DNA from: a virus | IMG/VR virus record: IMGVR_UViG_3300021425_003342 | Span: 1-52,313 of that record | Length of the DNA stretch: 52,313 bases | Reading direction: 5' to 3' (one strand) | Shown here: positions 8,021 to 27,973 of the stretch, in pieces | Layout of the letters: each line of letters opens with the position of its first letter | Numbering within the stretch: the stretch's first letter is position 1 | The notes under the pieces: model-generated | The model's input: the letters and a program-made list of their open reading frames with translations, nothing else | The model's database searches: none | Told to the model about the DNA's origin: nothing | Position numbers and translations under genes: made by a program

Positions 8021-8349
8021 TCGTTTACTATCCATAGATCTTCTAAATACTCAGAAATAAACTTAAAAGACTTTTTAGTATCTTTAAGAACTGCTTCAAA
8101 CTCAGCATTATCTGATTCTTGACAATAAAAATACTCACTTAAGCAGTCTGAATGATAGTTAACTTCCATTTTCCACTCTTCTAAAGAAGTAAAATCACTA
8201 GGATATTCTTCACAATACTCTGCATAGTTAGCTAAGAGCCTTGACAATAATACAGACATAGTCTTATCTGTAGTCCAGGAATCGCTTGGGTCTATTAAAA
8301 TAGTGCAATCAGAATACTCTGTGTTTAAGTTGGTAATATTAGCTAGCAT
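8017..8349 (-). CDS. Hypothetical acidic protein, 110 aa
   Basis: Not recognised. Soluble, acidic, with several Cys and many aromatic residues (EYFYCQESDNAEF). It is coupled to the phosphomannomutase gene by an ATGA overlap and lies 10 nt downstream of the zinc-finger-like gene, so the three form one operon from the promoter at 8684-8712. Confidence 0.6.
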   Translation of the reverse strand: MLANITNLNTEYSDCTILIDPSDSWTTDKTMSVLLSRLLANYAEYCEEYPSDFTSLEEWKMEVNYHSDCLSEYFYCQESDNAEFEAVLKDTKKSFKFISEYLEDLWIVNE

Positions 8350-26607: not shown

Positions 26608-26636
26608 ATATTAGCATGAAAAATTATAAATGTCAA
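26608..26636 (-). promoter_or_regulatory. Leftward sigma70 promoter at the divergence point
   Basis: On the minus strand TTGACA (26631-26636), 17-bp spacer, TAATAT (26608-26613). It marks the switch from leftward to rightward gene orientation. The intergenic region 26579-26698 holds this promoter; no clear rightward promoter was found. Confidence 0.75.
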
Positions 26637-26698: not shown

Positions 26699-26938
26699 TT
26701 GAAAAAGGTTACAGGATACTTTAATAAATTTAATAAGACCTATGTGCAACGAGAACTGGTCACTCTGCAAAAACTAGGAATTAATACAGAAAGCGTAAGT
26801 AGTGCAGACCTCTCAAGAAATATTACAACACCTATGTTTGTGATGACTAAAAATAATGGAATTATATCCAAACTTATAGGTAAATATTCTGCAGGTTACT
26901 TATCTTCTTGGGTACAAAACTATATAAAGGTAAATTAA
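26699..26938 (+). CDS. Hypothetical basic protein upstream of bS21, 79 aa (TTG start)
   Basis: Not recognised. Basic N-terminus (LKKVTGYFNKFNKTYVQREL), then a mixed region (SADLSRNITTPMFVMTKNNG). I start it at TTG 26699 because AGGAGAAATAAG places a strong ribosome site before it; the ATGs at 26630 and 26657 have none and the first overlaps the opposing promoter. The stop codon overlaps the bS21 start (TAATG), so both are translated together. Confidence 0.6.
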   Translation: MKKVTGYFNKFNKTYVQRELVTLQKLGINTESVSSADLSRNITTPMFVMTKNNGIISKLIGKYSAGYLSSWVQNYIKVN

Positions 26939-27204
26939 TGAAAATAAGTATAAAAAAATATAATAATGATGTCTCTAAAGCATATAAAATTATGATGAGA
27001 AAATTAAATGCTGACGGGTTTTATACAGACGCTAAAAGACAAAATTACTATGTTTCAAAGTCTGAAAAGCTTAGAGAAGCTAAAAAAGCTGGTAAGGCTA
27101 GATATAGAAAAGCAGAAGCTAAAAGACAAGCGCTTATGCAAAAGTTAGAAAGAAAAGCAGGCTACACAAAGAAGCAAAAAAATAGACCAAACTCCAAATC
27201 TTAA
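26938..27204 (+). CDS. rpsU: Ribosomal protein bS21
   Basis: 88 residues, homologous to the small-subunit protein bS21, which helps 30S subunits bind mRNA near the anti-Shine-Dalgarno region. The N-terminal core reads MKISIKKYNNDVSKAYKIMM, RKLNADGFYTDAKRQNYYVS, then the typical Lys/Arg/Ala-rich helix (AKKAGKARYRKAEAKRQAL). Start ATG at 26938 follows AAAGG. bS21 is known to be carried by phages of aquatic bacteria and may bias host ribosomes toward phage mRNA. Upstream gene overlaps by one base. Confidence 0.9.
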   Translation: MKISIKKYNNDVSKAYKIMMRKLNADGFYTDAKRQNYYVSKSEKLREAKKAGKARYRKAEAKRQALMQKLERKAGYTKKQKNRPNSKS

Positions 27205-27217
27205 TTTTAAATTTTTG

Positions 27218-27246
27218 TTGCTAACTACTATTTTTAGTGTTAATAT
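27218..27246 (+). promoter_or_regulatory. Promoter TTGCTA-17-TAATAT
   Basis: TTGCTA (27218-27223), 17-bp spacer, TAATAT (27241-27246), 30 nt before a small gene. The -10 overlaps the palindrome GTTAATATTAAC (27239-27250). Identical -35 and -10 hexamers and spacing recur at 34700-34728. Confidence 0.6.
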
Positions 27247-27275
27247 TAACTATATAATAAAAAAGAGAGTAACGC

Positions 27276-27443
27276 ATGAATACTGAGAAAGATAAAATTA
27301 TCAATGAAGCTGTAGAAAAACTCCATAATAATCCTTTAAAGTTTGCACCTTATAGACGGCCTAGCAGATTTAATAGGCTTAGAAACTATAACAATAAGAT
27401 TATTAATCAAGAAAAAGGAAGTACTAGTATAGTTTCTTTATAG
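27276..27443 (+). CDS. Small basic protein, 55 aa
   Basis: Reads MNTEKDKIINEAVEKLHNNP, LKFAPYRRPSRFNRLRNYNN and a short polar tail. Rich in Arg and Asn in the middle, suggesting RNA or DNA binding. First gene after the 27218 promoter; GAGAG precedes the ATG by a few nt. Not recognised. Confidence 0.55.
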   Translation: MNTEKDKIINEAVEKLHNNPLKFAPYRRPSRFNRLRNYNNKIINQEKGSTSIVSL

Positions 27444-27453
27444 GAGAATACAA

Positions 27454-27573
27454 ATGAATCCTAAAAATGGAGTAATACCTCATGCACTATCTAAAGCATG
27501 GAAAAAGAAACTAAAACAACTGTCTAATAAAAAAATAAGACAAAAAATAAATAAGAAATTAAGAGGTCACTAA
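27454..27573 (+). CDS. Small Lys-rich protein, 39 aa
   Basis: Reads MNPKNGVIPHALSKAWKKKL then KQLSNKKIRQKINKKLRGH. TAGGAG ribosome site before the ATG, which lies 10 nt after the previous stop. Highly basic; may bind RNA. Its 3' end overlaps the terminator at 27561-27607. Confidence 0.5.
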   Translation: MNPKNGVIPHALSKAWKKKLKQLSNKKIRQKINKKLRGH

Positions 27574-27607
27574 CTGCGATATATCTATCGTTTTAAACCT
27601 CTTTTTT
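27561..27607 (+). terminator. Branched rho-independent terminator before the tmRNA
   Basis: Outer stem AAGAGGT (27561-27567) / ACCTCTT (27597-27603) continuing into a six-T run (27602-27607); inner hairpin CGATA/TATCG (27577-27590). It should end the small-protein transcript just before the tmRNA acceptor piece, or form part of the precursor. Confidence 0.55.
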
Positions 27608-27951
27608 GTAATCGTTGATACAATTCAACATATGGACAGGACTGCGGGGCAGTACCGCACAGCTCCACCATAAACACTTGGAGAATGAAATGAGTGATAT
27701 CGTGACATATTTGTCATTGAAATTTGTACAATATGCACTGATAATCATATTATTTGGAAGTTTATTAGAAGTGTTTTTGATGGGGCTGAAATAGGATCGA
27801 CTGACGTATAGAGATGAGAGTAGATTACCGTGTTGGCCTACGTTATTCAGCCAAAAACTACAAATGCAAACGATAACTTTGCACCATCTAATTACGCACT
27901 AGCTGCATGATTAAGGGGGCTGGTCACTTGCCTAGCAACAGAAAAAGTGAC
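27606..27951 (+). ncRNA. ssrA: Circularly permuted two-piece tmRNA (alphaproteobacterial type)
   Basis: Rescues stalled ribosomes by acting as tRNA-Ala and then mRNA. The acceptor piece comes first: pseudoknot TTGTA/TACAA with GTTGA/TCAAC (27606-27629), T-arm TGCGG-GGCAGTA-CCGCA (27643-27659), CAGCTCC-A-CCA ending at 27670. After a ~111-nt intervening segment the coding piece starts GGGGCTG (27782-27788), pairing with CAGCTCC. Then pseudoknot GTAG/CTAC with TTGGC/GCCAA (27820-27854), the tag frame 27866-27910 encoding ANDNFAPSNYALAA plus UGA, and a closing hairpin GTCACTT/AAGTGAC (27923-27951). CGTAT (27805-27809) can pair with ATATG (27630-27634) as helix P2. Confidence 0.92.
27690..27794 (+). 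CDS. Possible hydrophobic peptide in the tmRNA intervening segment, 34 aa
   Basis: An open frame MSDIVTYLSLKFVQYALIII continuing with a hydrophobic stretch and ending EVFLMGLK, with GGAG 6 nt before the ATG. It spans the intervening segment and ends inside the tmRNA coding piece. It predicts one transmembrane helix. It may be coincidental, since the segment is normally cut out of the RNA. Confidence 0.25.
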   Translation: MSDIVTYLSLKFVQYALIIILFGSLLEVFLMGLK

Positions 27952-27973
27952 ACTCATTATTTTGAATAGCACT

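Follow-up and report, generated by a model that had tools for sequence, protein, structure and literature searches.

A conserved bS21-tmRNA operon in an uncultured aquatic phage lineage, with a probable exchangeable mini-gene slot inside the permuted tmRNA gene

We observed that the permuted tmRNA gene of an uncultured virus contains a second, protein-coding gene in its intervening segment. We consider it likely that this tmRNA gene is dual-purpose, with an exchangeable mini-gene slot, and that it belongs to a conserved operon made up of a thioredoxin-like gene, bS21, variable small genes and the permuted tmRNA. The window, meaning the whole stretch of DNA that was analysed, is a 52-kb virus fragment (IMGVR_UViG_3300021425_003342; 52,313 nucleotides), and the island studied here lies at 26699-27951. 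The operon order, the coding selection, the location of the mini-gene, the covarying closing helix and the exchange of the segment on its own are apparent from sequence comparison across metagenomic contigs and one cultured phage, Melnitz. Phage tmRNA is usually regarded as simply duplicating the rescue RNA of the host; with selected and exchanged protein genes inside it, it would be a composite gene whose nested part annotation overlooks. An earlier sequence-only reading of this DNA had listed an unknown protein, bS21, two basic peptides and a tmRNA, all of which we found where it had placed them, and it had missed the ORF at 27690-27794 inside the tmRNA gene. The features of the island are as follows.

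26699-26938, plus strand: predicted non-catalytic thioredoxin-fold protein, 79 aa; TTG start after AGGAG (AlphaFold2, Foldseek, pS > pN)
26938-27204, plus strand: ribosomal protein bS21, 88 aa (PF01165, 5.5e-7)
27276-27443, plus strand: basic peptide 1, 55 aa, lineage-specific (conserved to L008)
27454-27573, plus strand: basic peptide 2, 39 aa, lineage-specific (conserved to L008)
27608-27670, plus strand: tmRNA acceptor piece (RF04321/RF01849 alignments, sequence)
27643-27659, plus strand: T-arm with loop GGCAGTA, in the acceptor piece
27660-27666, plus strand: acceptor 3' strand CAGCTCC, in the acceptor piece
27667-27670, plus strand: ACCA, with the encoded CCA end at 27668-27670, in the acceptor piece
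27671-27781, plus strand: intervening segment, 111 nt, between the tmRNA pieces and closed by a helix
27690-27794, plus strand: nested mini-gene, 34 aa, MSDIVTYLSLKFVQYALIIILFGSLLEVFLMGLK; Shine-Dalgarno (SD) GGAG at 27680-27683 (homologues, pS > pN)
27782-27954, plus strand: tmRNA coding piece, beginning GGGGCTG (acceptor 5' strand, 27782-27788) (RF01849/RF04321, sequence)

The first gene of the block may alternatively start at an upstream ATG at 26630. The AlphaFold2 model of its product (mean pLDDT 91, pTM 0.79) has thioredoxins as its best Foldseek matches, with TMq up to 0.78; the single higher TMq (0.83) belongs to 5e4w_A, an entry titled for another protein. Since the protein has no Cys and hence no CxxC active site, the model identifies it as thioredoxin-like and not as a thioredoxin. 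The gene's stop codon and the start codon of bS21 overlap by a single base (TAATG, 26936-26940), which implies co-transcription of at least these two genes. bS21 passes the Pfam PF01165 cut-off (29.6 bits, cut-off 27) and shows pN of 0.01-0.07 and pS of 0.16-0.45 against its relatives. Pfam and PHROG searches gave no match above cut-off for either basic peptide, and basic peptide 1 had no match in phage records. In the comparison to L008, basic peptide 1 has a pS of 0.85 vs. a pN of 0.31, and basic peptide 2 a pS of 0.57 vs. a pN of 0.16. Because the non-synonymous rate is below the synonymous rate against relatives, all four small proteins are, by this measure, real genes and none is spurious.

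Conserved synteny of bS21 and permuted tmRNA had been named as the check on the earlier reading, and it was found: bS21 is followed by a permuted tmRNA within ~0.2-1.2 kb in at least 10 non-redundant viral loci, down to a bS21 identity of about 40%. Relatives with nearly identical bS21 retain the whole block. More distant relatives, reached via bS21 profiles, retain the thioredoxin-like protein, bS21 and the tmRNA, and the genes between the latter two vary. L177/G011 have no gene there; L023 has a PurS homologue (L023 4565-4846; PF02700, 2.5e-12), the end of which runs into the acceptor piece, and a WYL_2-like gene that falls below the Pfam cut-off; L179 has two unrelated genes, on a contig that stops just past the acceptor piece. 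L183 lacks the thioredoxin-like gene and has both bS21 and tmRNA, and L181/L182 keep the thioredoxin-like gene and bS21, with no tmRNA seen. Among the matches listed, bS21 is present in 3 of 49 tmRNA-bearing viral records and lies within a kilobase of the tmRNA in one. As judged by gene order, the bS21-tmRNA linkage is real and old in this lineage and is no general rule; it would represent a further, lineage-restricted case of phages with linked translation genes.

The role of bS21 is in translation initiation and that of tmRNA in ribosome rescue, and both may keep host ribosomes usable for phage messages. The island had been proposed to be a translation-takeover module, in which bS21, the basic peptides and the tmRNA are co-expressed early and bias host ribosomes to phage mRNAs. 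This would fit these two activities, the linkage across diverged phages and the co-transcription implied for at least the first two genes. Two of its premises were borne out: the window has six tRNAs elsewhere, and the ORFs directly left of the block are on the minus strand, which places the block at the start of the rightward arm. However, the basic peptides are lineage-specific, most tmRNA-bearing phages among the matches listed lack the linkage, as do L181/L182, and Melnitz keeps bS21 and tmRNA 10 kb apart. Early expression found no backing in the promoter signal, which is not clearly above chance (13 promoter-like sites vs. 9.2 ± 3.0 in shuffles), and the best such site in the intergenic gap (TTGACA-17-TAATAT, 26636-26608) points left. 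Metatranscriptome data also tie other phages' bS21 genes to late replication or expression and to structural genes (PMC9723584). Altogether, we regard a takeover module as unlikely. The combination of bS21 and tmRNA, which had been thought new, is known at the genome level, as both occur in Melnitz and both S21 and tmRNA were reported for phage Mosig (PMC9004378); the tight, conserved adjacency was unreported.

In the permuted form of tmRNA, acceptor piece, intervening segment and coding piece follow in that order, and the segment is excised. The covariance-model scores of the window tmRNA are above the gathering cut-off for both RF04321 (27608-27910; 117.9 bits, cut-off 47) and RF01849 (27555-27954; 103.6 bits, cut-off 50), and its acceptor piece lies upstream of its coding piece, as in permuted alpha-type tmRNA. 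The acceptor stem GGGGCTG/CAGCTCC includes a G3-U70 wobble, the pair expected for alanylation, and is accompanied by the T-arm and CCA. The tag reading frame, ANDNFAPSNYALAA followed by TGA (27866-27910), closes with a degradation signal. With T-arm, acceptor stem, CCA and tag all present, the window tmRNA looks intact. ARAGORN gave no call for it (27555-27954), and tallies of phage tmRNA that rely on this program may be underestimates, given this miss.

The ORF nested in the window segment has its own SD, and its stop codon (TAG, 27792-27794) falls inside the coding piece. Its hydrophobic core suggests a single-span membrane peptide. A profile of three such peptides retrieved ten viral loci (L219-L227, L099), and in 10/10 the homologue occupies the same slot, between CTCCACCA and the GGGG that starts the coding piece. 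This family, F1, comprises seven distinct sequences, window included, and the tmRNAs hosting it differ in coding-piece sequence and tag. In three F1 pairs, pS was 0.32, 0.64 and 0.68 and pN was 0.06, 0.20 and 0.20 (pN/pS 0.2-0.3); three pairs are few, and the distribution of changes over codon positions is in line with coding. L223 has its ORF stop shifted into the acceptor stem, which reads GGGGTAG there, and the 3' strand (CTACTCC) matches it. From these substitution patterns, the nested ORF is under purifying (coding) selection, and a nested gene in the window tmRNA is well supported. We infer that the mini-protein is made from this ORF. The mini-gene is dispensable, since the closest relatives of the window carry a different ORF or none in the segment.

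The comparison to sister phages provides a view of how the segment changes. Between the window and L002/L004/L005, the island is ~94% identical, except at about 27700-27770, where it is unalignable. At these positions the window instead matches L219, an otherwise different phage, in 90 of 102 ORF bases, and L219 is unrelated to the window ahead of its acceptor piece and over much of its coding piece. Because the sister phages are unalignable to the window in the intervening segment alone, the mini-gene is, on these alignments, swapped relative to them, and the segment has moved on its own, presumably via recombination in the conserved acceptor sequences. Such wholesale replacement is also what would be seen if the segment were a tolerant landing site for neutral or selfish cargo, with the mini-genes being morons unrelated to rescue and without any regulatory link.

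We surveyed viral contigs for further tmRNA loci, picked by tmRNA DNA motif alone, and all survey counts refer to the sample of matches listed. This survey yielded 97 non-redundant loci with a median segment of 81 nt, 44 of them with segments of at least 90 nt. Among independent segments of 90-300 nt, 25/43 were at least 75% filled by one ORF, compared to a mean of 4.2 and a maximum of 9 in dinucleotide shuffles with the ends kept and to 2 on the antisense strand. When we allowed ATG starts only and 70% filling, the count was 27 vs. 2.2. Short segments showed no ORF excess. It could be argued that the open frames are incidental by-products of constraint at the RNA level only, since the window segment folds better than shuffles (z-score -3.6) and segment ends are structurally constrained. 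That explanation is, in our judgement, highly improbable and largely refuted: it conflicts with the number of filled segments and its collapse on the antisense strand, with the behavior of short segments, with the third-position excess and a pS far above pN in F1, F2, most F3/F4 pairs and the single F5 pair, and with F2 proteins that are also found outside tmRNA.

The nested proteins are about 27-77 residues long, with one of 120, and several families are apparently membrane-spanning; those tested against Pfam and PHROGs gave no match above cut-off. Their stop codons lie either before or within the coding piece, and the ORFs commonly run into it. Both tmRNA landmarks accompany F4 in 70 of the best 80 of its 243 relatives, with three F4 copies sitting just upstream of the acceptor piece, and accompany F2 in 50/72 relatives; ~21/72 F2 copies are without landmarks, some of them free-standing. 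Exclusivity of the mini-genes to tmRNA holds for F1 (10/10) and fails for F2 and F4. The several unrelated families that occupy the slot, the free-standing F2 copies and the differing stop positions are all in keeping with cargo. Two free-standing F2 copies (L330, L331; 1501-1605) end in TTGATGGGGGC, like the coding-piece boundary, which suggests that this gene left a tmRNA and that F2 traffic runs in both directions. In L049/L177, the segment is nearly filled by a 47-residue, Cys-rich, zinc-ribbon-like ORF (MKYCKNCKHYW...).

Matches longer than 260 nt were few among the best-scoring 150 alphaproteobacterial matches, compared to ~21/46 viral ones, among the matches listed. Among the long bacterial segments that could be parsed, comparable ORFs were confined to L210 (102 nt, 31 aa) and to L212/L217, which is a contig of a MAG and resembles misbinned phage DNA. 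Storage of swappable mini-genes in the tmRNA segment is apparently a widespread habit of phages, and apparently an undescribed one; among open-licence full texts on genes in tmRNA intervening sequences we found a tRNA-Ala case only, and an earlier description is possible.

To the cargo explanation we can oppose the structure of the segment ends. Viral segment ends form a helix of about 10-12 bp that extends the acceptor stem, and in the window AAACACTT (27672-27679) pairs with AAGTGTTT (27769-27776). The best helix averages 9.9 bp over 52 distinct viral loci, compared to 5.8 bp when 5' and 3' ends are swapped between loci (100 trials, maximum 6.4 bp); by this control, the closing helix is strongly covarying. 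In the window, the 3' arm of the helix doubles as codons for the protein end and the SD begins right after the 5' arm. In the window and at several further loci, the SD lies directly against this helix or partly within it, and nested ORFs often enter the coding piece, so that their translation must touch RNA folding. These features argue against cargo without any regulatory link, a possibility to which we nevertheless give only slightly less than an even chance.

Under the dual-purpose reading, the precursor would fold such that a helix stacking onto the acceptor stem closes the segment between the pieces into a loop. A small protein gene equipped with a ribosome-binding site would sit in this loop, in the window the gene for the 34-residue membrane peptide, and the loop would be absent from the mature two-piece tmRNA. 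Because it is excised, the loop could accommodate foreign sequence without harm to the RNA. One transcript would then serve either as mini-protein mRNA or as tmRNA precursor. To reach the end of the ORF, a ribosome would have to unwind the closing helix together with part of the acceptor stem, which would keep a translated transcript from maturing, and in a folded transcript the SD would be adjacent to or within the helix. Translation and tmRNA maturation may in this way be mutually exclusive. An RNase P cut before GGGG would remove the stop codon of the window ORF. We rejected stop removal as a general rule, as nested ORFs stop both before and inside the coding piece; stop loss on cleavage would be a trait of some members only, because other nested stops precede the cut.

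We tentatively extend this to marine and other aquatic phages, an idea we think somewhat more likely to be wrong than right: their discarded tmRNA segment might be a cassette slot, a translate-or-mature switch might read ribosome availability, and the cleaved message might be self-targeted. If true, for ORFs ending in the coding piece the maturation cut would create a non-stop message, the target of the very tmRNA that it yields. The survey adds new mini-protein families, and the exclusion of translation and maturation on one RNA becomes testable. Melnitz, cultured and with such an ORF, is a concrete test system.

Like the window phage, Melnitz is aquatic, and its genome combines bS21 with a permuted alpha-type tmRNA (PMC9004378). 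PhoH, PDDEXK and cell-wall hydrolase genes lie near the tmRNA in both, the window genes being named by resemblance. The 142-nt intervening segment of the two-piece Melnitz ssrA also holds an ORF, from a different mini-ORF family than that of the window. In contrast to the window, Melnitz is annotated as Kyanoviridae, its rpsU is ~10 kb from ssrA and a glutamine riboswitch lies beside ssrA. The Melnitz (L001) segment, at about 8026-8167, contains the unannotated ORF MFKWLSKTRLVVITRDYFRERNRKADAKIPKYLSG... with an SD-like TTGGAGAA, and no CDS is annotated inside its ssrA. In L106, whose tmRNA region is 72% identical to that of Melnitz, an F3 ORF sits at the same place.

Two other arrangements resemble the window. 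A tRNA-Ala gene in a permuted tmRNA intervening sequence, a single case and unique according to its authors (PMC11915505), is likewise a second gene within an excised precursor segment; it is an RNA gene found once, whereas the window type is protein-coding and recurrent. LAGLIDADG homing endonuclease genes reside in tmRNA genes that have a group I intron (PMC11915505). There, too, the part of the tmRNA gene that harbors a protein gene is removable, but it is a self-splicing intron in the T-loop, and in the window it is the natural segment of the permuted form, with no intron. Phage-encoded bS21 has been described in HTVC008M/pelagimyophages (PMC7029224) and Bacteroidetes phages (PMC9723584); unlike in the window, the excerpts of these two sources do not report it beside a tmRNA.

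The window phage is best described, from its marker genes, as a member of an uncultured, aquatic, T5-like siphovirus lineage. Its DNA polymerase, PolA, has its nearest matches among T5-like family A polymerases (39% identity). The 82-kb sister contig G001 has a terminase 40% identical to those of T5-like phages; portal and head genes are also present on it, as is a 4420-aa ORF with the length of a tape-measure protein. We rejected an affiliation with T4-like pelagimyophages (HTVC008M group), because PolA and the G001 terminase are closest to T5-like phages. In tblastn searches against isolated phages, bS21, basic peptide 1 and the mini-proteins had no match; short matches aside, the Melnitz tmRNA alone among isolates is near the window tmRNA in sequence. 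The alpha-type tmRNA suggests an alphaproteobacterial host, although Melnitz shows that tmRNA type is no proof of host. Permuted tmRNAs also turned up in MAGs. G066 and G067 have two permuted tmRNAs apiece, one of each possibly phage-derived or misbinned. L185, a Nitrosopumilus MAG, has a phage-like permuted tmRNA motif in a group not expected to have one, and L212, an Opitutia MAG from a similarly unexpected group, carries such a motif together with an ORF-bearing segment and is likely a misbinned phage.
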